Made by a program: the position numbers and the translations under genes. A DNA stretch of 43,613 bases from Piscinibacter sp. (GTDB lineage Bacteria; Pseudomonadota; Gammaproteobacteria; Burkholderiales; Burkholderiaceae_C), in assembly GCA_019635485.1 (NCBI GenBank), contig JAHBZL010000041.1:1-43613 (forward strand), given 5' to 3'. Below the pieces are notes generated by a model. It was not told where the DNA came from. It worked only from the letters and a program-made list of their open reading frames with translations, and ran no database searches. Below are positions 5,423 through 17,402 of this stretch, piece by piece; within the stretch, counting starts at the first letter, position 1, and each line of letters starts with the position of its first letter.

Positions 5423-6850
5423 TCAGGAGGCCGGGGCGGGGTCGTTGGCGGCGCGGATCGGCGTGTCGGGCTGCCAGCCGCCGCCCAATGCCTTGTACAG
5501 GCGCACATGGTCGGCGGCGACGTCCGCCTCGGCGGCGGCCACGTTGTCCTGTGCGCTGAGCTGCGAGCGCTGGGTCTCGAGCACGGTCTGGAAGTCGACC
5601 AGGCCGCTCGAATAGCGCTGGCGGGCCAGCAGCGCGGCGTTGTCGGCGGCTTCGGCGGCCACGCGCAGCGTGGCCAGGCGCTCGCGGTCGCCGCGCAGTG
5701 CGACCAGCGCATCCTCGACATCCTTCAGCGCGGACAGCACCGTGGCCCGCAGCCGCGTGCGCGACTGCTCGTACGCGGCCTGCTGGGCCTGCACCTGGGC
5801 GCGGCCGGCACCGCCGTCGAACAGCGGGGCCGAGACGCTGGCCAGCAGCGCGCTGGCCACCGAGCCGGGGCCGCTCAGGCCGGACAGCGTCAAGGCGCTC
5901 AGGCCCAGCGAGCCGGACAGGTTGAAGCTCGGATAGCGCGCCGCGTCCGCCTGCACGATGCGCTGCGCCGCCGCATCGGCGGCCAGCGCGGCGCTGCGCA
6001 CGTCGGCGCGCTGGCGCAGCGTGTCGGCCGGAAACGCGAGCGCGAGATCCGCGGGTGCCTGCGGCAGCGTACCGCCGCCGAGGCTCAGCGCGTCGACCGT
6101 GCGGCCGGTGAGCAGCGCGAGCTGGTGGCGCGACTGCTGCGCCGCGGTGGCCAGCGAGACGGTCTGCGCCCGGGTCTGCTCGACCGCGGCACGTGCCTGC
6201 TCCGCCTCCAGCGACGTCGCGAGTCCCGCCTGCACGCGCCACTGCGTGATCTGCTGCGTCTCCTGCTGGCTCTCGAGGTTGGCCTGCGCGATCGCCAGGC
6301 GCGCCCCGTTGCTGCGCAGCGTGATGTAGGCGAGCGCCACTTCGGCCGCCACCGACACCTGCACGTCGCCGAGCGTCGCGGCGCTGGCCTGGGCGTCCAG
6401 CCCGGAGGCCGCCGCGGCGGCGCGGTTGCCGCCGAACACGTCGGGTTCCCAGCTGGCGTCGAAGCCGGCACGGAAGCTGTTCGAGGCTAATTGCGAGGCC
6501 GCGCGGTTGCGCCCGGCCGAACCGGAGACGCTCAGCGCCGGCCCGTTGCGGGCGGTCTGCACGTCGGCCAGCGCACGCGCCTGGCGCAAGGCGGCCCGGG
6601 CCGATTCGATGTCGGTGTTGGCGGCCAGCGCGTCGCCGACCAGGCCGGTGAGTGTCGGGTCATCGAAGCGCCGCCACCAGTCGGCCAGCGAGGCCGCGTT
6701 GCGCGTTCCGCCGCCGGCCGACCAGGCCGCCGGCACGGCCACGCCGGCCTGCGGCGCGGTGACCGGTGCGCCCAGCGTGGCGCAGCCGGCCAGCGCCAGC
6801 GCGGCCAGCAGCGCCACGGGGCCTGATCGGGGGCGAAAGGATTGCGGCAT
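5423..6850 (-). CDS. NodT-family outer membrane efflux lipoprotein
   Basis: A 475-residue TolC-like outer membrane factor. The signal peptide ends in lipobox LAGC, with lipidated Cys23. Two OEP repeats follow: NTDIESARAALRQARALADVQTARNGPALSVSGSAG and the matching SAALAADAAAQRIVQADAARYPSFNLSGSLG, each leading to a long helical region, as in CusC/OprM/NodT. It forms the outer membrane channel of the tripartite pump. The ATG chosen puts a normal n-region before the lipobox; an upstream ATG at 6883 would add 11 residues without a better signal. It is the first gene of the operon, and a palindrome abuts the start codon. Confidence 0.92.
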   Translation of the reverse strand: MPQSFRPRSGPVALLAALALAGCATLGAPVTAPQAGVAVPAAWSAGGGTRNAASLADWWRRFDDPTLTGLVGDALAANTDIESARAALRQARALADVQTARNGPALSVSGSAGRNRAASQLASNSFRAGFDASWEPDVFGGNRAAAAASGLDAQASAATLGDVQVSVAAEVALAYITLRSNGARLAIAQANLESQQETQQITQWRVQAGLATSLEAEQARAAVEQTRAQTVSLATAAQQSRHQLALLTGRTVDALSLGGGTLPQAPADLALAFPADTLRQRADVRSAALAADAAAQRIVQADAARYPSFNLSGSLGLSALTLSGLSGPGSVASALLASVSAPLFDGGAGRAQVQAQQAAYEQSRTRLRATVLSALKDVEDALVALRGDRERLATLRVAAEAADNAALLARQRYSSGLVDFQTVLETQRSQLSAQDNVAAAEADVAADHVRLYKALGGGWQPDTPIRAANDPAPAS

Positions 6851-6920: not shown

Positions 6921-6976
6921 CCGTCGCCAACCCGTCACCGGACCGTCACGGCCGGGTCGCGTGACCGGTCGATGAT
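6921..6976 (+). promoter_or_regulatory. Putative Pho-box promoter of lplT
   Basis: Four 7-bp units start at 6921, 6932, 6943 and 6954, exactly 11 bp apart: CCGTCGC, CCGTCAC, CCGTCAC and GGGTCGC, with GTC always in the same phase. This is the geometry of PhoB sites (CTGTCAT-type half-sites, 7 bp plus 4 bp). After the last unit come 10 bp, a -10-like GATGAT (6971-6976), 9 bp and the lplT ATG. No separate -35 is evident, as expected for PhoB-activated promoters. The same spacing recurs at 14781-14823. PhoB binding is inferred. Confidence 0.5.
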
Positions 6977-6985
6977 CGCCGGCTC

Positions 6986-8188
6986 ATGCCGCCGGGCTTC
7001 CATGTCCTCATCGCCGCCCAGTTCTGCTCCGCGCTCGCCGACAACGCGCTGCTGATCGTCACCATCGCGCTGCTGCAGCAGCAGGGGCTGCCCGGCTGGT
7101 GGGCGCCGCTGCTGAAGTTCGCCTTCACGCTGTCCTACGTGTTCCTGGCGCCGGTGGTCGGGCCGCTGGCCGACGCGTTCCCGAAGGGCCGCCTGATGGC
7201 ATGGATGAACGGCGTCAAGGTGGCGGGCGTGGTGGCGCTGCTGGCGGGGGTGCCGCCGGTGCTGGCGTTCGTGGTGGTCGGCTTCGGCGCGGCCGCGTAC
7301 GCGCCGGCCAAGTACGGCCTCGTCACCGAGATCGTGCCGGCAGCGAAGCTCGTGGAGGCGAACGGCTGGATCGAGGTGTCGGTGGTGCTCGCGGCGCTGC
7401 TGGGCACGGTGCTGGGGGGGCTGCTCGTGCGCGACGCCGGCGCGCTGGACGGCTCGCTGGGCGTGCTGCTGATCGTCTACGTGCTGGCCGGGCTGCTGAA
7501 CGGCGTCGTGCCGGTCAGCAGTGCCCGCTACGCGCGCCGTCCCATCCATCCGGTCGCGCTGCTGCGCGACTTCGCGGCGGCGCAGCGCACGCTGTGGGCG
7601 GACCGCGACGGCGCGCTCTCGATGGCCGCGACGACGCTGTTCTGGGGCGTCGGCGCCACGCTGCAGTTCGCCGTGCTGCGCTGGGCGATCGACGTGATGG
7701 GCCTGACGCTCGAGCGCGCCGCCTACCTGCAGGCGGCGGTCGCGGTCGGCGTGGTGGCGGGCGCGGTGGTGGCCGGGCGCTGCGTGCCGCTGGCGCGCGC
7801 GCGGCGTGTGCTGCCCGCCGGCATCGTGCTCGGCGCGCTGGTCGCGCTCGGTGCGCTGTGCCCGACGCTGTGGCTCGCGCTGCCGCTGTTCGTGCTGGTC
7901 GGCGCCGTCGGCGGACTGCTGGTGGTGCCGCTGAACGCGCTGCTGCAGCACCGCGGGCACGTGCTGCTGTCGGCCGGGCGTTCGATCGCGGTGCAGGGCT
8001 TCAACGAGAACCTCAGCATCCTCGTGATGCTGGCCGGCTACGCGGCGCTGCTCGCGGTGCCGGTGGCGATCGTGCCGCTGATGATCGGCTTCGGCCTCGC
8101 GATCGGCGTGGCGATCACGCTGCTGATCGTGCGCGAGCGGCGCCGGTCGCCGCCGACGGCGCTGCCGCGCTCGCCAGCGTCGCCGTGA
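6986..8188 (+). CDS. lplT: Lysophospholipid transporter LplT (MFS)
   Basis: A 400-residue major-facilitator protein with about 11-12 hydrophobic helices. It tracks E. coli LplT closely: AQFCSALADNALLIVTIALL near the N-terminus, then GFGAAAYAPAKYGLVTEIVP, LFWGVGATLQF, GAVGGLLVVPLNALLQHRGH and AIAVQ-like SIAVQGFNENLSIL. LplT flips lysophosphatidylethanolamine and related lysolipids inward across the inner membrane for reacylation. In E. coli it is followed by the acyltransferase Aas; no aas is adjacent here. The ribosome site is weak and the -10-like hexamer is only 9 bp away, so the message may have almost no leader. Its last 74 bp overlap the convergent glycosyltransferase gene. Confidence 0.9.
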   Translation: MPPGFHVLIAAQFCSALADNALLIVTIALLQQQGLPGWWAPLLKFAFTLSYVFLAPVVGPLADAFPKGRLMAWMNGVKVAGVVALLAGVPPVLAFVVVGFGAAAYAPAKYGLVTEIVPAAKLVEANGWIEVSVVLAALLGTVLGGLLVRDAGALDGSLGVLLIVYVLAGLLNGVVPVSSARYARRPIHPVALLRDFAAAQRTLWADRDGALSMAATTLFWGVGATLQFAVLRWAIDVMGLTLERAAYLQAAVAVGVVAGAVVAGRCVPLARARRVLPAGIVLGALVALGALCPTLWLALPLFVLVGAVGGLLVVPLNALLQHRGHVLLSAGRSIAVQGFNENLSILVMLAGYAALLAVPVAIVPLMIGFGLAIGVAITLLIVRERRRSPPTALPRSPASP

Positions 8189-9353
8189 ACACCGCCTCGA
8201 CCTGCGCGACGATGCGGTCCCAGCCGAGTTCGCGGGCCGTTTCGCGCGCCTGCGCGCCGAGCGCGCGGGCCAGCGCCGGGTCGGCCGCCAGCCGGCGCGA
8301 ATGGCGGACGAACTCGGTCGTGTCGGCGGGCCGGACGATCAGGCCGTTCACGCCGTCGCGGATCAGCTGGCCGGCGGCCGCATGGTCGAAGGCCAGCACC
8401 GCCAGGCCGCTGGCCAGCGCTTCGGTGGTGACGTTGCCGAAGGTCTCGGTCAGGCTCGGGAACACGAAGCAGTCGGCCGAGGCGTAGTGCCGTGCCAGGT
8501 CCTCGCCGTAGCGCGCGCCGGCGAAATGCGCATCGGGCAAGGCGCGCTGCAGTTCCTCGCGCGCCGGGCCGTCACCGACGATCACCGCGCGCAGCGCCGG
8601 CTGCACCTCGCGCATCGCCAGCAGGGCCTCGGCCAGCACACCGAGGTTCTTCTCCGGCGCGAGCCGGCCGACGTACAGCGCCACCGGCGCTTCCGCCGCG
8701 GCACCCCACTGGCGGCGCAGTTCGTCGCTGCGCCGGGCCGGGTCGAAGCGCGCGGTGTCGACGCCGCGCGAGACGACCCGCAGCCGCTCGAAGCCCTGCA
8801 GCGCGAGCTCCTGGCGCAGCCGCTCGGTGGGCACCATCGTGAACGCGGTGCGGTTATGGAACTTGCGCAGGTAGGCCATGATCGGCCGCTGCAGCCAGCC
8901 GATGCCGTAGTGGCGGCTGTAGGCGTGGAAGTTGGTGCGGAAGTCCGAGCACACCGGCAGCTTCAGCCGCTGCGCTGCCTGCAGGGCCGACCAGCCGAGC
9001 GGCCCCTCGGTCGCGATGTGGACCAGATCGGGCCGGTGCAGCGTCCACAGGCCGACCAGCGCCTTCTTCGACGGCACGCCCATGCGCAGGTCCGGGTAGC
9101 GCGGGATCGCGATGCCGCGCAGCAGCACCTCGTGGAAGCGGTCGGCCTGCGCGGCGCTGTCGCCGCCGCTCTGGCGCGGCCGGATCAGCTGCAGGTCGTG
9201 GTGGCGCTCGTGCAGGCCGTCGACCAGGCGCTGCAGCGTCATCGCGACGCCGTTGACCTCCGGCGGGTAGGTCTCGGTGACCAGCGCCACCCGCAGCGAG
9301 CGCCGCGCGGCCGGCAGCTCGTCGACCGTGAAAGAAGGCTGCTCGCTTGTCAT
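8115..9353 (-). CDS. GT4-family glycosyltransferase (lipid or mannosyl type)
   Basis: A 412-residue GT-B glycosyltransferase. The N-terminal Rossmann half begins VALVTETYPPEVNGVAMTLQRL, typical of the PimB/MgtA/SqdX branch of GT4, and contains DLVHIATEGPLGW and SDFRTNFHAYSRHYG. The C-terminal half has LYVGRLAPEKNL, IVGDGPAREEL and FVFPSLTETFGNVTTEALASG, the EX7E nucleotide-sugar motif. Relatives transfer mannose, glucose, glucuronate or sulfoquinovose to diacylglycerol or phosphatidylinositol lipids, so a glycolipid role fits the neighbouring lplT and lipid genes; donor and acceptor cannot be told from sequence. The Ala-rich C-terminal tail overlaps the end of lplT on the other strand. The ribosome site is weak. 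Confidence 0.85.
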   Translation of the reverse strand: MTSEQPSFTVDELPAARRSLRVALVTETYPPEVNGVAMTLQRLVDGLHERHHDLQLIRPRQSGGDSAAQADRFHEVLLRGIAIPRYPDLRMGVPSKKALVGLWTLHRPDLVHIATEGPLGWSALQAAQRLKLPVCSDFRTNFHAYSRHYGIGWLQRPIMAYLRKFHNRTAFTMVPTERLRQELALQGFERLRVVSRGVDTARFDPARRSDELRRQWGAAAEAPVALYVGRLAPEKNLGVLAEALLAMREVQPALRAVIVGDGPAREELQRALPDAHFAGARYGEDLARHYASADCFVFPSLTETFGNVTTEALASGLAVLAFDHAAAGQLIRDGVNGLIVRPADTTEFVRHSRRLAADPALARALGAQARETARELGWDRIVAQVEAVFTATLASAAAPSAATGAARARSAA

Positions 9354-9362
9354 GCCGGCATC

Positions 9363-9438
9363 GTGACGGGCTTGTGCAACAAACCGATGACGGCGGCCGT
9401 CACCGGATTTTCACGCCCGCCGGTCACCATGACGTCAT
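9363..9438. promoter_or_regulatory. Divergent promoter region with GTCAC repeats and ATGACGTCAT palindrome
   Basis: The region between the GT4 gene and the Mpo1-like gene holds GTGACGG (9363), ATGACGG (9387), CCGTCAC (9397), TTTTCAC (9408, 11 bp on) and CGGTCAC (9421, 13 bp on), then a perfect 10-bp palindrome ATGACGTCAT (9429-9438). The half-sites resemble the Pho-box units upstream of lplT, but only one pair keeps the 11-bp spacing and no convincing -10 follows, so this site is much weaker. Confidence 0.3.
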
Positions 9439-9459: not shown

Positions 9460-10074
9460 GTGAACGAATTCCTGCAGGCCCTGAAGACGCAGCGCTGGGA
9501 CGACCACCGCTACTACCACCACAGCCGCATCAACCAGTCGCTGCACCTGCTGTCGGCGGTCAGCTTCGTGGTGGCGTACGGGCTGCTGTTCATCGACCCG
9601 GCGCTGTCGGCGCTGGTGGCCTGGCTGGTGTCGATGTGCAGCCGGCAGGCCGGCCACTTCTTCTTCGAGCCCCGGGGCTACGACCACGTCAACCAGGCGA
9701 CGCACGAGCACAAGGAAGAGATCAAGGTCGGCTACAACCTGCGCCGCAAGGTCGTGCTGATGGGCCTGTGGGCCGCGGCGCCGGTGCTGCTGGCGGCGGA
9801 CCCGTCCTGCTTCGGCCTGATCGTGCCGGGCGTGGGCTTCGCCGGCTGGGTGCACGACGTCGGACTGTTCTGGCTCGCACTCGGCGTCGGCGGCCTGCTG
9901 TTCCGTACCGTGCACCTGTTCTTCCTGAAGGACGTGCGGACCGGCCTGGTCTGGATGACGAAGATCCTGACCGACCCGTTCCACGACATCTGGCTGTACC
10001 ACCGCGCCCCGCTCGCGCTGCTGCGCGGCGAGCTGATCGATCCGATGCCGCACGCGCAGGCGCGGCACGGCTGA
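9460..10074 (+). CDS. Mpo1-like (DUF962/YGL010w-like) integral membrane protein
   Basis: A 204-residue membrane protein with about four hydrophobic helices. It carries the His pattern of the Mpo1-like family: YYHHSRINQSLHLLS near residue 20, RQAGHFFFEPRGYDHVNQATHEH around residues 62-85, and a C-terminal HDIWLYH. Yeast Mpo1 is an Fe(II)-dependent dioxygenase that alpha-oxidises 2-hydroxy fatty acids from sphingoid base breakdown, and the conserved His residues are thought to bind iron. Bacterial members are uncharacterised. The start is GTG with GGAG 7 bp before it. It is divergent from the GT4 gene and could share its regulation. Assignment rests on the H-x4-N-x3-H and QxxGHxxFE-like motifs, so the family is likely but the reaction is open. 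Confidence 0.6.
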   Translation: MNEFLQALKTQRWDDHRYYHHSRINQSLHLLSAVSFVVAYGLLFIDPALSALVAWLVSMCSRQAGHFFFEPRGYDHVNQATHEHKEEIKVGYNLRRKVVLMGLWAAAPVLLAADPSCFGLIVPGVGFAGWVHDVGLFWLALGVGGLLFRTVHLFFLKDVRTGLVWMTKILTDPFHDIWLYHRAPLALLRGELIDPMPHAQARHG

Positions 10075-10540: not shown

Positions 10541-12190
10541 TTACCAGAGATGCGCCAGCATCTCGCGCAGCAGCCCGCGCTTGATCGCCTTGTCGGTCAG
10601 TGCGGCGTCGTGCCACCACCAGCCGTCCGCCGCCATCGCGCGCGCGGCGGCGACGAAGCGGTCGGCCACCGCCGCGAACTCGGCGTCGCCGTAGTTCAGG
10701 CTGAAGATCAGCCTTCCGGTGCCGACCCAGCTCAGCGCGAGACCCTCGGCGCGCAGGTAGTACTGCAGCAGCCAGTTGTAGCGCGAGGGTTGCGTGTAGG
10801 TCACGGTCCAGATCGTCGAGAGGTTGGCCACCCGCACCGGCAGGCCCGCCTCCCGCAGCCGGGCATTCAGCGCCGCGGCGCGTGCGTTCCAGCGCTCGTC
10901 CAGCCCGTCGTAGAGCGCCTGCACCTCGGGGCGCTCGAGGCGGTCGAGGAAGGCCGCCATCGCCCCCATCACGTACGGATGCGAGTTGAAGGTGCCGCGC
11001 GCGAAGCAGATGTCGGCCGGCCGGTCCTCGCGGAAGCGCCGCATGTACTCGCGCCGGCCGCACACCACGCCGATCGGCAGCCCGCCGCCCAGCGTCTTGC
11101 CGTAGGTCACCAGGTCGGCCGGCACGCCGAAATACTGCTGCGCACCGCCGGGGGCGAGGCGGAAGCCGACGAACACCTCGTCGAAGATCAGCACGATGCC
11201 GCGCTCGCTGCACACCGCGCGCAGGTCCTGGAGCCACTGCGTGTAGGCGGCGCGGTCGAAGCCGGCGCGGCGGCTGCTGTCCACCAGCGACGAGTCACCG
11301 GGCGCCGCGGCGTTCGGGTGCAGGGCCTGCAGCGGGTTGACCAGCACGCAGGCGATGTCGCGCCGCGTGCGCAGCACCTGCAGCGTGCGCTCGTCCATCT
11401 CGCGCAGCGTGTAGGTCTCGCGCGCCGGCACCGGATTGCCGGGGCCGGGCTGCACGTCGCCCCACCAGCCATGGTAGGCACCGCAGAAGCGCACGAGGTG
11501 CGTGCGCCGCGTGTGGTAGCGCGCCAGGCGCACGGCCTGCATGACGGCCTCGGTGCCGGACATGTGGAAGGACACCTCGTCCAGCCCGGACAGCCGCTGC
11601 AGCCGCCGGACGTTGTCCGCCACGCAGGGGTGGTACGGGCCCAGCACCGGGCCGAGCGCGCGCACGCGTGCGGCGCCTTCGTCGATGCAGTCGCGGTAGA
11701 AGTCGACGCCGAACACGTTGACGCCGTAGCTGCCGGTCAGGTCGTGGAAGACGTTGCCGTCCAGGTCCTCCACCGTCACGCCCCGGGCCGCCTGCACGAA
11801 GGCGCCGACCTGCAGGTGCTCGCGCAGCACCGGCGCGTACTGGTAGGGCACGCGGTAGGCGCCGGTGAACTGCAGGTCCGACAGGCCGGAGCGCGCCTGC
11901 GCCGTGGCGGCCAAGGAGCGCGGGAAACGCTCGCGGAACAGCGTCGCCAGCCCGTCCAGCCCGGCCCGGCGCCGCGCGACGACCTCCGCCGGCGCGCCGT
12001 CCGAATCGAAGAAGCGCGCCTCGTCGTAGGCATACCCCGGCAGCCAGCGCGCCACACGGCGCGCCATGCGCGCATGGCCGGTCAGCGACGGGTGCTTGGC
12101 GCGCGACAGCGCCAGGCGGCGCCAGGCCAGCGGCGCGGTGGCGGCCAGGGCCGCCGCCGCGACGGCCGACCACACGAAGGTTTCATTCAT
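10541..12190 (-). CDS. Membrane-anchored class III PLP aminotransferase (GSA-aminomutase-like)
   Basis: A 549-residue protein. It starts with a hydrophobic helix (about residues 5-24, VWSAVAAAALAATAPLAW) followed by Arg residues, a likely N-terminal anchor with the enzyme facing the cytoplasm. The fold-type I aminotransferase body shows SGTEAVMQAVRLAR (211-224), GAYHGWWGD (237-245), LIFDEVFVGFR with PLP-binding D337, and YGKTLGGGLPIG with Schiff-base K365. These place it near glutamate-1-semialdehyde 2,1-aminomutase, but at 549 residues with a ~100-residue N-terminal extension it is unlikely to be HemL. Substrate is unknown. It is divergent from psd with only 17 bp between starts and follows GGAGG, so regulation is probably shared with lipid synthesis. 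Confidence 0.82.
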   Translation of the reverse strand: MNETFVWSAVAAAALAATAPLAWRRLALSRAKHPSLTGHARMARRVARWLPGYAYDEARFFDSDGAPAEVVARRRAGLDGLATLFRERFPRSLAATAQARSGLSDLQFTGAYRVPYQYAPVLREHLQVGAFVQAARGVTVEDLDGNVFHDLTGSYGVNVFGVDFYRDCIDEGAARVRALGPVLGPYHPCVADNVRRLQRLSGLDEVSFHMSGTEAVMQAVRLARYHTRRTHLVRFCGAYHGWWGDVQPGPGNPVPARETYTLREMDERTLQVLRTRRDIACVLVNPLQALHPNAAAPGDSSLVDSSRRAGFDRAAYTQWLQDLRAVCSERGIVLIFDEVFVGFRLAPGGAQQYFGVPADLVTYGKTLGGGLPIGVVCGRREYMRRFREDRPADICFARGTFNSHPYVMGAMAAFLDRLERPEVQALYDGLDERWNARAAALNARLREAGLPVRVANLSTIWTVTYTQPSRYNWLLQYYLRAEGLALSWVGTGRLIFSLNYGDAEFAAVADRFVAAARAMAADGWWWHDAALTDKAIKRGLLREMLAHLW

Positions 12191-12207
12191 GCCCTCCGCT
12201 TCTACCC

Positions 12208-13107
12208 ATGTCGATTGACACCCCGATGAAAACGGCGCCGCGGCGCCGCGCCTGGCGCGACGCGCTGTTGCAGCAGGAGGACCTGAACTTCCTGCTCACC
12301 AACCGCGTACCGCGCCTGGCGCTGACCCGCTTCATGGGCTGGTTCAGCAAGATCCGCCAGCCGCTGGTGCGCGACGCGTCGATCGCCGTCTGGCGCGCGT
12401 TCGCCGACCTCGACCTGAGCGAGGCCCGCAAGGACCGCTTCGACAGCCTGCACGACTGCTTCGTGCGCGAGCTCAAGCCCGGCGCGCGCCCGGTCGACCC
12501 GGATCCGGCCGTGCTGACGAGCCCGTGCGACGGCATCGTCGGCGCCTGCGGCGCCGTGGCCGACACGCAGGTGTTCCAGGCCAAGGGCTTCCCGTACTCG
12601 GCCGTGGACCTGTTCGGCGACGCGGCGGCCTTCGAGCCGTTCCGCGACGGCTGCTTCGTCACGCTGCGGCTGACCTCGAGCATGTACCACCGCTTCCACG
12701 CGCCGTACGACTGCCGCGTGCGGCGCGTCACCCACATCGCCGGCGACACCTGGAACGTCAACCCGATCGCGCTGAAGCGGGTCGAGCGGCTGTTCTGCCG
12801 CAACGAGCGCGCGCTGATCGAGGCGCGGCTGCCGGACGGCACGCCGCTCGCGCTGGTGCCGGTCGCGGCCATCCTGGTCGCCAGCCTGCGCCTGCATTTC
12901 CTCGACCTGCTGCTGCACGGGCGCTACGCCGGGCCGCAACAGATCGCCTGCGACGCGGCGCTCGCCAAGGGCCAGGAGATGGGCTGGTTCGAGCACGGCT
13001 CGACGATCATCGTCTTCGCGCCGCGCGGCATGGCGCTGGCCGAGGGCCTCGCGAGCGGCACCCGGGTCCGCATGGGGCAGCCGCTGCTGCGCCGCCCGGA
13101 GGTTTAG
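12208..13107 (+). CDS. psd: Phosphatidylserine decarboxylase proenzyme
   Basis: A 299-residue pyruvoyl-dependent enzyme that converts phosphatidylserine to phosphatidylethanolamine on the inner membrane. Key motifs are SPCDGIVGACG, FVTLRLTSSMYHRFHAPYDC (the conserved YHRFHAP His motif), GDTWNVNPIAL and the self-cleavage site GST at 264-266; Ser265 should become the pyruvoyl group, leaving an alpha chain of about 35 residues. The length and GST site match the long E. coli-type Psd rather than the short ~215-residue form that I recall as common in betaproteobacteria, so this may be a second or specialised enzyme. An alternative ATG lies six codons later. The stop overlaps the convergent UPF0016 gene by 4 bp. 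Confidence 0.92.
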   Translation: MSIDTPMKTAPRRRAWRDALLQQEDLNFLLTNRVPRLALTRFMGWFSKIRQPLVRDASIAVWRAFADLDLSEARKDRFDSLHDCFVRELKPGARPVDPDPAVLTSPCDGIVGACGAVADTQVFQAKGFPYSAVDLFGDAAAFEPFRDGCFVTLRLTSSMYHRFHAPYDCRVRRVTHIAGDTWNVNPIALKRVERLFCRNERALIEARLPDGTPLALVPVAAILVASLRLHFLDLLLHGRYAGPQQIACDAALAKGQEMGWFEHGSTIIVFAPRGMALAEGLASGTRVRMGQPLLRRPEV

Positions 13108-13676
13108 AACAGCCGGCCGACGTTGAACAGCGTCAGCACGCCCAGCAGGGCGAAGATGCCGGCGGCGATGCCGTGCACCAGCCGCATCGGCACGTGCCGC
13201 GCGATGCGGTCGCCGAGGAACACCGCCGGCACGTTCGCCAGCAGCATGCCGAGCGTCGTGCCGGCGACGACGGCGGCGAAGTCGGTATAACGCGCCGCCA
13301 GCGCGACGGTCGCGATCTGGGTCTTGTCGCCCATCTCGGCGAGGAAGAACGCCACCACCGTCGTGCCGAACACGCCGAAGCGCTGGCGCGTGCTGGCGGC
13401 CTCGTCGTCGACCTGGTCGGGAATCAGCATCCAGCCGGCCATGGCGAGGAACGACAGGCCGATCACCCAGCGCAGCAGGTCCGGGCCGAGCGCCTGCGCG
13501 ACCCAGCCGCCGAGCGCGCCGGCAAGCGCATGGTTGGCGAGCGTGGCGACGAGGATGCCGACGATGATCGGCACGGGGCGGCGGAACTTCGCGGCCAGCA
13601 GCATGGCCAGCAGCTGGGTCTTGTCGCCCATTTCACCGAGCGCGACGACGCCGGTCGAGACAAGGAAGGATTCCAA
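13104..13676 (-). CDS. UPF0016/GDT1 (TMEM165-like) Mn2+ exporter
   Basis: A 190-residue membrane protein with six predicted helices in two inverted halves. Each half carries the family signature E-x-G-D-K-T: E15-MGDKT and E114-MGDKT. Family members move Mn2+ or Ca2+; bacterial MneA exports Mn2+. The start is TTG, giving the usual N-terminus (M)ESFLVSTGVVALGEMGDKTQLLA; GGAGA stands 6 bp before it and no in-frame ATG fits. The upstream yybP-ykoY riboswitch supports a manganese-exporter role: Mn2+ binding should raise expression. Its neighbours include glycosyltransferases, some of which need Mn2+, though that link is only suggestive. Confidence 0.93.
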   Translation of the reverse strand: MESFLVSTGVVALGEMGDKTQLLAMLLAAKFRRPVPIIVGILVATLANHALAGALGGWVAQALGPDLLRWVIGLSFLAMAGWMLIPDQVDDEAASTRQRFGVFGTTVVAFFLAEMGDKTQIATVALAARYTDFAAVVAGTTLGMLLANVPAVFLGDRIARHVPMRLVHGIAAGIFALLGVLTLFNVGRLF

Positions 13677-13682
13677 GCGGAT

Positions 13683-13730
13683 CTCCGCGGGCCGGCACAC
13701 AACCGAAGACCACACGGCATCCCCGGCCCG
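13683..13730 (-). promoter_or_regulatory. Likely riboswitch expression platform
   Basis: Downstream of the aptamer, CGGGCCGG (13723-13730) and CCGGCCCG (13688-13695, both read on the minus strand) form a perfect 8-bp stem. Its 3' side ends directly against the GGAGA ribosome site of the TTG-initiated gene. This suggests control of translation, or an anti-terminator choice, by pairing next to the Shine-Dalgarno. Inferred from complementarity only. Confidence 0.5.
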
Positions 13731-13740
13731 TCCGGAGGCA

Positions 13741-13852
13741 GTGCGGTCAAAGGTCTGGCCAGGCGTCGGAGCTGCTCGCGCCATGGCCGCGAAGGCCAAG
13801 TCTGTTGACGCGAGCCCCGGCGCGCTTGGCGCCGGGCGGCTACTCCCCAATG
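13741..13852 (-). ncRNA. yybP-ykoY manganese riboswitch aptamer
   Basis: On the minus strand, the leader of the UPF0016 gene holds the conserved elements of this class in order: TTGGGGAGTAGCC at the 5' end, a GC-rich stem, CGTCAACAGACTTGG in the core, a variable hairpin, and GACCTTTGACC at the 3' end. The GGGGAGUAGC, GUCAACA and ACCUUUG blocks are the diagnostic ones. The class binds Mn2+ and typically turns on exporters such as MntP, YybP or UPF0016 proteins; the downstream gene fits. Confidence 0.93.
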
Positions 13853-13900
13853 ACAGAAGCGGCGCGAGTGTAGCGGAACGACCTGAACCCGGGCTGACGC

Positions 13901-14758
13901 CTAACCGAGCTCGAAGCTCGTGACACCGAACAACCGGTCCAGCGGCAGCGCGGGCACGGCGCCGGTGAACATGCGCGCGGTCTCGAACACCGGCGCGAAG
14001 CCGAGCTCGCGCGCGAGCGCGACGGCCTCGGCGTTCGGCGCCGGCACGTCGAGCTGCACCGGCGTGCCGGGCGGCAGCGGGGCGACCAGCGCGTGCAGCA
14101 GGTCGGCGGCGGCCCGGGCATCGTCGGCGAACAGCGGGCCGATCTTGCAGCCGGCGCGGCACGGACGGATCACGCCGTAGCCGGCCAGCGCGCCGTCGCG
14201 CACCGCCGCCAGCGCCATGCTGCCGCGCTGCGCGATCCAGTGCTGCGTGAAGCGGCGGCGGTCGTCGGGGAAGAAGGCGGCGTCGTAGTCGAGCAGCGCC
14301 GGCAGCGGCCAGGCGGCCAGCGGCAGCACCGTGCCCGCTGGCGCGGCGACGTGGCCGTCGTGCCGGCCCTCGTAGCGCACGTTGTTCCAGGCGAACGCGA
14401 AGCCGCTGCGCCGGTAGTTGTCCTGCTGGGCGACCACGCCGTCCAGGCCGACCACGCGGCCCGCGAAGCGCTGCATCGCAGCGCGCCACAGCGCGAGGCC
14501 GTGGCCGCGGCCGCGGAACGCCGGGCGCACGATGTAGAAGCCGAGGAAGCCGAAACCGGCGCCGTAGTGGACGGCCGAGACCATGCCGACCGGCTCGCCG
14601 TCCAGCGTGCCGAGCAGGAAGCCGGCCGGGTCGGTGGCGTGGAACGTGTCCGCGTCGTGCAGGCCCGGGTTCCAGCCTTCCTGCGCCGCCCACTCGATGC
14701 CGAGCTCGAGTTCGGCACGGGTCATCGGGCGGATCTGCAGCGTGCTCATGCCGGACAT
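13901..14758 (-). CDS. GNAT-family N-acetyltransferase
   Basis: A 285-residue protein. The N-terminal half is a GNAT domain: GTLDGEPVGMVSAVHYG, then FLGFYIVRPAFRGRGHGLALWRAAM, where the RGRGHG stretch is motif A, the acetyl-CoA pyrophosphate loop. The C-terminal half (about 150-285) looks like a degenerate second GNAT lobe (AGYGVIRPCRAGCKIGPLFADDARAA, then ARELGFAPVFETARMFTG), the layout of YitH-like acetyltransferases. The substrate is unknown. It is divergent from the MGDG-synthase-like gene with 65 bp between, so its promoter overlaps the putative Pho box. A second ATG three codons in is equally possible. Confidence 0.85.
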   Translation of the reverse strand: MSGMSTLQIRPMTRAELELGIEWAAQEGWNPGLHDADTFHATDPAGFLLGTLDGEPVGMVSAVHYGAGFGFLGFYIVRPAFRGRGHGLALWRAAMQRFAGRVVGLDGVVAQQDNYRRSGFAFAWNNVRYEGRHDGHVAAPAGTVLPLAAWPLPALLDYDAAFFPDDRRRFTQHWIAQRGSMALAAVRDGALAGYGVIRPCRAGCKIGPLFADDARAAADLLHALVAPLPPGTPVQLDVPAPNAEAVALARELGFAPVFETARMFTGAVPALPLDRLFGVTSFELG

Positions 14759-14780: not shown

Positions 14781-14814
14781 CGGTCACGCGGGCGTCACCG
14801 TCGGTGGCTACGCT
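14781..14814 (+). promoter_or_regulatory. Putative Pho-box promoter of the glycosyltransferase-ugd operon
   Basis: CGGTCAC (14781) and GCGTCAC (14792) are 11 bp apart, followed by 10 bp, a -10-like TACGCT (14809-14814), 9 bp and the GTG start at 14824. These spacings are identical to those in front of lplT. Two half-sites are the minimum for a PhoB dimer. No -35 is evident. Binding is inferred. Confidence 0.45.
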
Positions 14815-14823
14815 GCGGATCCC

Positions 14824-16035
14824 GTGACGAAGACGATCGCGCTGGTGTACTTCAACGCGGGTGGCGGCCACCGTGCCGCCGCGCAGGCGCTCGAGGCGGT
14901 GATCCGCGCGCAGCGCCGGCCGTGGCGTGTCGAGCTGGTCAACCTCGTCGAGGTGCTCGACCCGCAGCAGCGCTTCCGCAAGCTGACCGGCGTCACGCCG
15001 GAGGACCTGTACAACAAGCGGCTGGCGCGCGGCTGGACGCTGGGCATGGCGCAGGAGCTGAAGCTGCTGCAGGCCGCCATCCGCTTCGGCCACGCGGCGA
15101 TGGTGCGCATGCTGCAGCAGCGCTGGCTGCGCGCGGAGCCCGACCTGGTCGTCTCGCTGGTGCCGAACTTCAACCGCGCGCTGCACGAGAGCGTCGCGAC
15201 CAGCCTGCCCGGCGTGCCCTACGCGACGGTGATGACCGACATCGCCGACCTGCCGCCGAACTTCTGGATCGAACCCGGGCTGGACCAGCATGTCGTGTGC
15301 GGCAGCGAGCGGGCGCGGGAACAGGCGCGCGCGGCGGGTTATCCGGACACGCGGCTGCACCTGACCAGCGGCATGATCCTGCGGCCGGATTTCTACGACC
15401 TGCCGCCGCTGGACCGTCCGGCCGAGCGGGCGCGCCTCGGCCTGCCGGCGCAGGGCCCGGTCGGCGTGCTGATGTTCGGCGGCCAGGGATCGATGGCGAT
15501 GCTGCGCATCGCGCGGCTGCTGGACGGCCTGCCGCTGATCCTGATGTGCGGCCACAACCGGCTGCTCGCGCAGCGGGCCCGCGCGCTGCGCCGGGGCGCG
15601 CCGCAGGTGGTGGTCGAGTTCACGCCGGACGTCGCACGCTGGCTGCGGCTGGCCGACTTCCTGGTCGGCAAGCCCGGGCCCGGCAGCCTGAGCGAGGCGG
15701 TGCAGCTCGGCCTGCCCGTGGTGACCTCGCGCAATGCCTGGACGATGCCGCAGGAACGCTACAACACCGAGTGGCTGCAGTCGCGTGGCCTGGGCGTGGT
15801 GCACCGCTCGCTGCGCACGCTGCCGGCGGCGGTCGACGAGCTGCTGCGCCACCTGCCTGAACTGCAGGCGAACGTCGCCCGCGTGCGCAACCGCGCGGTG
15901 CTCGAAGTGCCGGACATCCTGCAGTCGATCCTGTCGGAGAGCGCGGCCCCACCGCACTGGCGCTGGGTCGGCCAGACGCCGGAAACGCCCGGCAAACCGC
16001 CCGACGAACTCCTGTCCACGAGGGAAACACCATGA
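14824..16035 (+). CDS. MGDG-synthase/UgtP-like diacylglycerol glycosyltransferase
   Basis: A 403-residue GT-B enzyme of the MurG/MGDG-synthase group. The N-terminal domain has [20 protein letters not shown] (the GGGHR loop, 13-17) and [12 protein letters not shown]. The C-terminal domain has [48 protein letters not shown] (282-292) and GLPVVT, the nucleotide-sugar site. Relatives add glucose or galactose to diacylglycerol on the inner face of the membrane. The start is GTG. Its stop overlaps the ugd start as ATGA, so the two proteins are made together. A ready supply of UDP-glucuronate suggests glucuronosyl diacylglycerol as product, but UDP-glucose is equally possible as donor. Confidence 0.85.
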
Positions 16036-17402
16036 AGATCTCGGTATTCGGGGCCGGCTACGTCGGGCTCGTCACCTCGGCCTGCCTGGCCGAGATGGGC
16101 AACAGCGTGCTTTGCGCGGACGTCGACGAAGCCCGCGTGGCGATGCTGCGCGGCGGCGCGGTGCCGATCCACGAGCCCGGGCTCGACGAGCTGCTGGCAC
16201 GAAACGCCGCCGCCGGCCGGGTGGCCTTCACGACCGACGTGCGGGCGGCCGTCGAACACGGCACGCTGATCTTCATCGCCGTCGGCACGCCCTCCAGCGA
16301 GGACGGCAGCGCCGACGTCGAACACGTGCTGGCCGCGGCACGCAGCATCGGCGCGCACATGACCGACTACAAGGCCGTGGTCGACAAGAGCACCGTGCCG
16401 GTGGGCACCGCCGACCGCGTCGCGGCGGCCATTCGTGCCGAGCTGGCGCGGCGCGCGGTGATCGTGCCGTTCGCCGTGCTGTCGAACCCCGAGTTCCTCA
16501 AGGAAGGCGCGGCGATCGACGATTTCATGAAGCCGGACCGCGTGATCGTCGGCTGCGACGATGAGCGGGCCGGCCTGCTGCTGCGCTCGGTCTACGCGCC
16601 GTTCCTGCGCAACCGCGACCGCCTGATGCTGATGGACGTGCGCAGCGCCGAACTGACGAAGTACGCCGCCAACGCCATGCTGGCGACGCGCATCAGCTTC
16701 ATGAACGAGCTGGCCCGCCTGTCCGAGCAGATCGGCGCCGACATCGAGCAGGTGCGCCGCGGCATCGGCGCGGATCGCCGCATCGGCAGCGACTTCCTCT
16801 ACGCCGGCTGCGGCTGGGGCGGCTCCTGCCTGCCCAAGGACGTGAAGGCGCTGCTGCGCACCGGCAGCGATGCCGGCGTGCCGCTGGACATCCTGGCCTC
16901 GGTGCTGCAGGTCAACGAACGCCAGCGGATGCTGCTGGCCGAGCGCGTGCTGCAGCGCTTCGGCCCGGACCTGCGCGGGCGGCGCTTCGCGCTGTGGGGG
17001 CTCGCCTTCAAGCCCGGGACCGACGACATGCGCGAGGCGCCCAGCCTGACGATCGTCGACGCGCTGCTGCAGCGCGGCGCGCAGCTGCAGGTGTTCGACC
17101 CGGTGGCGATGGACCGGGCGCGCCAGGTCTGGGCCGGGCGCGAGGGCCTCGTGTACTGCGATCACCCGCTGCAGGCGGCCGACGGCGCCGACGCGCTGAT
17201 CGTCGTGACGGAATGGCGCGAGTTCCGCAGTCCGGACTTCGATGCGCTGCGCGAGCGGCTGCGCCAGCCGCTGGTGATCGACGGGCGCAATCTCTACGAC
17301 CCGGCGCTGCTGGAGTCGCTCGGCTTCGAGTGCATCGGCATCGGCCGGCCGCGTGCCGCGGTGGCGGCCACGGCGGCCCTGGTGGAGCCGCTGGCCGCCT
17401 GA
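16032..17402 (+). CDS. ugd: UDP-glucose 6-dehydrogenase
   Basis: A 456-residue enzyme that oxidises UDP-glucose to UDP-glucuronate with two NAD+. The N-terminal Rossmann fold begins [23 protein letters not shown]. Further motifs are [57 protein letters not shown] and [12 protein letters not shown] with catalytic Cys266. The C-terminal domain (about 325-440) has [19 protein letters not shown] and [13 protein letters not shown]. The length is normal. It is translationally coupled to the upstream lipid glycosyltransferase (ATGA), with no capsule or LPS cluster around it, so its UDP-glucuronate is more likely meant for glycolipid than for capsule. Confidence 0.96.

Follow-up and report, generated by a model that had tools for sequence, protein, structure and literature searches.

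The DNA analysed here, hereafter the window, is a 43,613-nucleotide stretch from Piscinibacter sp. that carries a two-gene operon on its plus strand. The first gene (14824..16035) encodes a glycosyltransferase of family GT28, of the MGDG-synthase/YpfP type and predicted to act on diacylglycerol, and the second, ugd (16032..17402), encodes an enzyme of the UDP-glucose 6-dehydrogenase kind and overlaps the GT28 stop codon in an ATGA. The GT28 assignment is based on a match to PF06925 (MGDG_synth) of 25.1 bits, at a cut-off of 25, and on profile matches to plant MGD1 (4wyi, 2e-31) and to a processive diacylglycerol beta-glucosyltransferase (9wde, 4e-23). An identity as Agt was considered and rejected, since the profile is that of GT28, with PF06925 and structures of the MGD1/YpfP type, whereas Agt of the known PlcP-Agt pathway is a GT4 enzyme (PMC8231724, in excerpt).

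What precedes this operon? Direct reading places half-sites CGGTCAC at 14781-14787 and GCGTCAC at 14792-14798, 11 bp apart from start to start, and together they form the Pho box CGGTCAC GCGG GCGTCAC (14781..14798, plus strand), which is also picked out by the matrix described below. A 10-bp spacer (14799-14808) leads to the -10 element TACGCT (14809..14814), which occupies the same position relative to the box as TAGAGT and TACAGT do in pstS promoters, and a further 9 bp (14815..14823) separate it from the GTG start codon of the GT28 gene at 14824. The preliminary description had given this same register, spacing and start codon, and all of them are exact.

Several further genes lie upstream of the operon. 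The lysophospholipid transporter gene lplT (6986..8188, plus strand; NF008397, 463 bits at a cut-off of 297) is followed by a GT4 glycosyltransferase gene on the minus strand (8115..9353), whose nearest models, GlcNAc-PG synthase and alpha-MGlcDAG synthase, both match below their cut-offs, and by a gene for an Mpo1-like protein (9460..10074, plus strand), for which PF06127 is likewise below cut-off. Next come a class III aminotransferase with a hydrophobic N-terminus (10541..12190, minus strand), and a second enzyme of the phosphatidylserine decarboxylase (PSD) type (12208..13107, plus strand), with FEHGST near its C-terminal end, in which we take GST to be the enzyme's GST motif. These last two genes are divergent neighbours (10541-13107). 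GDT1 and GNAT acetyltransferase genes occupy 13104-14758 on the minus strand, between the PSD gene and the GT28 gene.

A promoter matrix derived from pstS

A search for pstS in 40 relatives' genomes gave a match in 38/40; 30 upstream stretches were examined, of which 26 contain a strong two-unit site. The matrix was built from 25 distinct pstS sites: four of the 30 stretches did not reach the seed score, and two identical sites were merged into one. In 24/25 sites a -10 element starting with TA (mostly TAGAGT, TACAGT or TAGCAT) lies exactly 10 bp past the box, with T as first base in 24 and A as second base in all 25. The 14781 site shares this architecture of two 7-bp units at 11 bp and a -10 element 10 bp on, as does the promoter of ppk1. 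Its scores of 12.6 for the box and 16.2 for the full promoter both fall below the lowest of the training sites, whose full scores run from 17.7 to 37.3 and whose lowest box score is 15.8, and for this reason we regard it as a moderate site.

The preliminary description had proposed comparison with a PhoB matrix, and the outcome favors the GT28 promoter, which ranks second in the window at 16.2, after 12232 on the minus strand (17.3, aminotransferase) and before 9397 on the plus strand (15.5, Mpo1-like gene). Ranks four and five fall at 9369 on the minus strand (10.5; this match covers the start of GT4, and its -10 element falls within that gene) and at 9393 on the same strand (6.8, GT4), and the sixth match scores 3.6. 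The five best full-promoter matches of the window are thus all located at gene starts of one lipid island at 9.3-14.8 kb.

lplT is absent from the eight best full-promoter matches. The preliminary description had presented the lplT and 14781 promoters as agreeing base for base in their distances, and this holds when the lplT promoter region (6921..6976, plus strand) is read as CCGTCAC at 6943-6949, GGGTCGC at 6954-6960, 10 bp, the candidate -10 element GATGAT at 6971-6976, 9 bp and ATG at 6986. The region, however, contains four units (CCGTCGC, CCGTCAC, CCGTCAC and GGGTCGC) at 11-bp steps, starting at 6921, 6932, 6943 and 6954, so the agreement is set in part by the choice of register. The register 6943/6954 scores 2.9 for the box alone and -0.1 with the -10 element; the pair one unit upstream, 6932/6943, has a box score of 16.7 but scores only 0.6 with a -10 element at 10 bp. 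Aligned, the two promoters are identical at 21/46 bases, motif bases included. Given the score of -0.1 and its absence from the eight best matches, the lplT site was not accepted as an equivalent counterpart, and since lplT fits the matrix poorly in that register the 14781 site rests on its own merits and not on its likeness to lplT.

Could the 14781 site have arisen by chance? GTCAC words are common in DNA of 73% GC, and 4.0 loose boxes with one mismatch are expected in the window (10 matches with at most one mismatch observed versus 4.04, sd 1.92 and largest 9, in 100 shuffles); in addition, the site scores below all pstS training sites and the agreement with lplT depends partly on register. 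Against an accidental origin, the full pattern of box, 10 bp and NANNNT has three exact matches in 5.0 Mb of the organism's own genome (84% complete), the 14781 site being one of them, versus 0 matches for the reversed control in the same 5.0 Mb, and a score of 16.2 is attained at 0/4,358,000 positions in 100 mono-shuffled windows. The conservation of the layout before diverged GT28 orthologues and the contrast of 33/42 versus 0/25 presented in the next section also speak against it, and a chance origin is therefore highly improbable. The earlier statement that such sites are hard to explain by composition is well founded for 14781, where shuffles, genome count and matrix concur, and weaker for lplT.

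Conservation of the layout among GT28 orthologues

The cluster of lplT, GT4, Mpo1-like, aminotransferase, PSD and GT28 genes, together with a plcP-type gene, is kept in genus members G001 and G006 (loci L035 and L036), and G001 also carries ugd; a GT28 orthologue occurs in only 3/8 genus genomes. The GT28 promoter layout is kept across the window and these two loci at 61-66% protein identity: in G001 and G006 the units are spelled in other letters in the same register, with the -10 element 10 bp on and then 10 and 8 bp, respectively, to ATG. In G001 and G006 no GDT1 and GNAT genes intervene between PSD and GT28 as they do in the window, and the promoter accompanies GT28 in both arrangements.

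The comparison was extended to 87 GT28 loci (80 named loci, six others and the window), minus two duplicates; the named loci are the best 80 of 386, several of them short, and L038 (same place as L159) and, as duplicates, L135 and L037 were left out. A promoter was counted as present at the 99% control score of 2.7, which was set on 9454 control stretches of 120 bp each. The scans covered 170 bp with a start-codon rule in the GT28/plcP contrast and 155 bp and 210 bp in the two aminotransferase sets presented below, and because these regions exceed the controls in length the false positives in these scans are somewhat above 1%.

Among GT28 genes that have no plcP or PSD gene close upstream, 33/42 (window included) reach the control score, versus 0/25 of those located behind a same-strand plcP. 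Behind PSD, 5/14 pass where the gap is below 75 bp and 2/4 where it is wider, and in the same scan 35/43 plcP promoters pass. A Pho-type promoter is missing in 9/42 of the first of these groups, and at L085, L094 and L096 (two Malikia and one MAG) GT28 and plcP both fail. The orthologue comparison that the preliminary description had suggested as a check thus supports the GT28 promoter, both in the layout kept at L035 and L036 and in the 33/42 that pass. A regional test of upstream sequences gave 17/18 for the aminotransferase, 15/18 for GT4 and 15/19 for the Mpo1-like gene, and few passing for lplT (3/8), PSD (3/20) and ugd (1/3).

Gene content was followed across the same loci. A plcP-type gene is found in 39/80 named GT28 stretches, some of them short, and within 1.5 kb of GT28 in 34 of these; it is also linked to GT28 in L035-L041. 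The aminotransferase, Mpo1-like and PSD genes occur together in 16/80 named stretches. ugd is present in 2/80, again with some stretches short, and follows GT28 in the window, L035 and L092. G003 lacks a GT28 orthologue; its ugd gene is located behind a GT4 gene whose promoter is of the Pho type at a score of 11.5 (L190 3106-5704).

Pho genes elsewhere in the genome

A Pho promoter would require its regulator, and pstSCAB-phoU-phoB-phoR are present in the genome by their translations, the models matching only PstS and the DNA-binding domain. The open reading frames of PhoB and PhoR, as read by translation, lie at 5888-6589 and 4545-5891 of contig stretch L034. The organism's own plcP-type gene is located on another contig, where phased repeats are followed by GACGAT 8 bp before ATG; the matrix gives this promoter a score of 7.3 when read in another register, and the protein has only weak LpxH-family matches, so that its identity as PlcP is putative. 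Adjoining it is ppk1, with a Pho promoter that scores 24.1 and has 6 bp between -10 and ATG (L191 7177, minus strand).

Another explanation is that the site is real and serves a different OmpR-family or stress regulator that recognizes a similar direct repeat. The consensus is short, and matches to the response-regulator DNA-binding family number 33 across the genome. Yet the matrix, for which pstS promoters were the sole source, picks out ppk1 and plcP-type genes as well, and we consider such a regulator very unlikely. The claim of a PhoB-type promoter in front of the glycosyltransferase-ugd operon is instead supported by the pstS-derived matrix, the orthologue layout and the 33/42 versus 0/25 contrast, and is further backed by the plcP-type gene and the pstSCAB-phoU-phoB-phoR genes of the same genome.

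Distance between the -10 element and the start codon

The GT28 start codon lies 9 bp past the -10 element, and the organism's own pstS start (MSSSIFRV, read by eye) about 38 bp past its own. Is such a short distance common? Among passing GT28 promoters, it amounts to 6-11 bp in 15/33 of those with no plcP or PSD close upstream and in 7/7 of those behind PSD, and the remainder have 0 or 12-81 bp. For plcP, exactly 8 bp are found in 19/35 passing promoters and 30 bp in eight more, a distance that would fit room for two further phased units. A noisier rescan by half-sites gave 5-11 bp in 7/25 GT28 and 21/34 plcP promoters. The short distance from -10 to start codon suggests that the GT28-ugd mRNA is leaderless or nearly so, with transcription probably starting at most a few bases away from the start codon; a GTG start codon would be unusual for a leaderless mRNA and counts against this. 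In Burkholderia cenocepacia, a relative in which leaderless genes are thus documented, 72 genes are transcribed from the start codon itself and 42 from within 10 nt, 24 of them tRNAs, according to the excerpted text of PMC4603805.

Proposed model for glycolipid synthesis under phosphate starvation

A pair of 7-bp GTCA-type units spaced at 11 bp, with a score below the pstS training sites, TACGCT as -10 element 10 bp further on, conservation before orthologues (33/42 where no plcP or PSD lies close upstream of GT28) and phoB and phoR in the same genome are what would be expected of a Pho promoter, and 14781-14823 looks like a true phosphate-starvation switch for a pair of enzymes predicted to make a phosphorus-free sugar lipid. 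We hypothesize, with a probability of roughly 0.78, that this is a PhoB-activated sigma-70 promoter that drives GT28-ugd glycolipid synthesis under phosphate starvation, in concert with PlcP. When phosphate is scarce, PhoR would phosphorylate PhoB, which would bind both half-sites, phased at 11 bp, as a substitute for a -35 element, allowing RNA polymerase to start from TACGCT and produce the GT28-ugd mRNA. A PlcP-type phospholipase, encoded on the other contig behind similar repeats, would strip phosphate head groups to leave diacylglycerol, to which the GT28 enzyme would add a sugar from UDP-glucose or UDP-glucuronate. Ugd would supply the UDP-glucuronate, such that an acidic glycolipid could stand in for acidic phospholipids. 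Phosphate control of the operon itself is what we infer, and PhoB binding, phosphate induction, the start point, the sugar and the lipid product are predicted from the site, its layout, its conservation and the gene content read in the DNA together with work in other bacteria (PMC8528852, PMC4796936, PMC9239053, PMC8231724 and PMC6445935, each in excerpt).

An alternative is that the operon is under Pho control while its product is not a glucuronosyl membrane lipid but, for instance, a neutral glycolipid or a surface-polysaccharide precursor, with ugd working for another pathway. UDP-glucuronate also feeds polysaccharides, and ugd in only 2/80 named GT28 stretches would suit this explanation; the enzyme, in turn, is a GT28 of the MGDG-synthase/YpfP kind, and ugd is placed behind GT28 or behind GT4, both of which belong to the lipid island. 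We therefore judge another product to be rather unlikely and retain the glucuronosyl glycolipid as the preferred outcome. The earlier reading of this operon is supported as regards the Pho type of its promoter, and is revised in that the site belongs to a larger island and the enzyme to GT28 and not, like Agt, to GT4.

How does this compare with known systems? The PlcP-Agt pathway described for Pseudomonas aeruginosa, marine heterotrophs including SAR11, Agrobacterium and Methylosinus shares with the present case a PlcP-type phosphoesterase and a lipid glycosyltransferase. In P. aeruginosa, plcP-agt1 and agt2 have Pho boxes and the products are MGDG and GADG (PMC8528852, excerpt), and in the parts of PMC8528852, PMC4796936 and PMC9239053 that we draw on, the Pho boxes reported belong to P. 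aeruginosa and to plcP clusters in marine bacteria, and a glucuronate lipid is described. The link of a PlcP-type gene to the glycosyltransferase is seen here too (39/80 stretches and L035-L041), with the organism's own copy on another contig. Unlike PlcP-Agt, the window has ugd in the glycosyltransferase operon and a cluster with further Pho-type promoters. Type Ia methanotrophs have plcP near a diacylglycerol glycosyltransferase of the Bacillus YpfP type, a pairing proposed from gene order (PMC9239053, excerpt) that resembles plcP-GT28; the term "Pho box" was not found in the main text of that paper, and the present loci are from Burkholderiales, with their promoter layout tested over many of them. 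In Caulobacter crescentus, for which anionic glycoglycerolipids are also described, the PhoB regulon includes the glycosyltransferases Sgt1 and Sgt2, by which hexuronic acid and hexose are attached to lipids, with ceramides as their acceptors (PMC6445935, excerpt).

GT28-based lipid remodelling is thus a known kind of system in a new form, the pairing of plcP with a YpfP-type enzyme having already been noted in methanotrophs. In the open-licence full-text literature on PlcP, Pho and lipid remodelling, no title or abstract start describing this cluster was found among the papers listed, and the accounts of phosphate-driven remodelling that were found, in their excerpted text, concern GT4 Agt enzymes in alpha- and gammaproteobacteria. 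Burkholderiales repeatedly carry the GT28-based version together with Pho-type promoters, and among them are named isolates in which it can be tested: several Variovorax, Piscinibacter sakaiensis and Rhodoferax antarcticus.

Pho-type promoters at neighboring genes of the island

The window's best match to the matrix is the aminotransferase promoter (12199..12232, minus strand; TTTTCAT CGGG GTGTCAA, 10 bp, TAGAAG; 17.3), which runs into the 5' end of the PSD gene and whose layout is kept in relatives. The Mpo1-like gene has the promoter CCGTCAC CGGA TTTTCAC, 10 bp, CACCAT (9397..9438, plus strand; 15.5) with a second box CGGTCAC CATG ACGTCAT, and it recurs at L035 14068 (minus) and L036 5833 (plus). 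A weak candidate (6.8) lies in front of GT4, CCGTCAT CGGT TTGTTGC, 10 bp, CACGAT, 6 bp and ATG (9354..9393, minus strand), in a layout shared with G001 and G006.

The aminotransferase, whose nearest solved structures are the mycosubtilin synthase aminotransferase and glutamate-1-semialdehyde aminomutase, was detected in 93/299 family genomes and 25/398 phylum genomes (E 1e-60), and a search of viral contigs for it found none. PSD is present as two copies in 6/6 genomes tested, and the aminotransferase/PSD pair with its Mpo1-like neighbor recurs in distant Pseudomonadota. In one set of loci, from which L174 was left out as too short, the aminotransferase promoter passes in 25/29, and the four misses (L163, L164, L165 and L185) are those in which the gene is co-directional with PSD, not divergent from it. 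In more distant Pseudomonadota 20/22 pass, at a threshold that is lenient for the AT-richer genomes included; among distant loci with a GC content of at least 0.60, 12/14 pass, two of them narrowly (L207 3.6, L215 2.9), and L212 and L217 fail. Coding constraint on PSD was considered as the cause of the aminotransferase box and rejected: the overlap with the first PSD codons is real and does not explain the whole, because the -10 element precedes the PSD start and the 10-bp spacing is kept in aligned loci.

The apparently Pho-type unit of aminotransferase, second PSD and Mpo1-like genes is the least expected part of the island, and no tie to phosphate was found for it in the open-licence literature searched. 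One tentative possibility, to which we give less than even odds, is that the island represents an undescribed Pho-controlled pathway for a phosphorus-free amino-lipid across Pseudomonadota, in addition to leaderless or near-leaderless Pho promoters under selection for distance, foremost that of plcP. Its parts would be a membrane-tethered aminotransferase, a PSD-type decarboxylase and the Mpo1-like protein, joined by GT4 in Burkholderiales and by a methyltransferase in one Sphingomonas. Since the promoter signature marks this unit, it offers a direct way to seek a new phosphorus-free lipid.

On a plasmid of Sphingomonas parapaucimobilis the aminotransferase, PSD, Mpo1-like and methyltransferase genes lie together (L192 8881-12116), and the aminotransferase box there scores 22.7 (20.4 with the -10 element) with 5 bp to ATG. 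Separately, in G001 (L035 18594, minus) and G006 (L036 882, plus) a gene that is pyruvate-kinase-like by translation precedes lplT, with a Pho-type promoter of 16.3 and 15.8, respectively, 7 bp before ATG.
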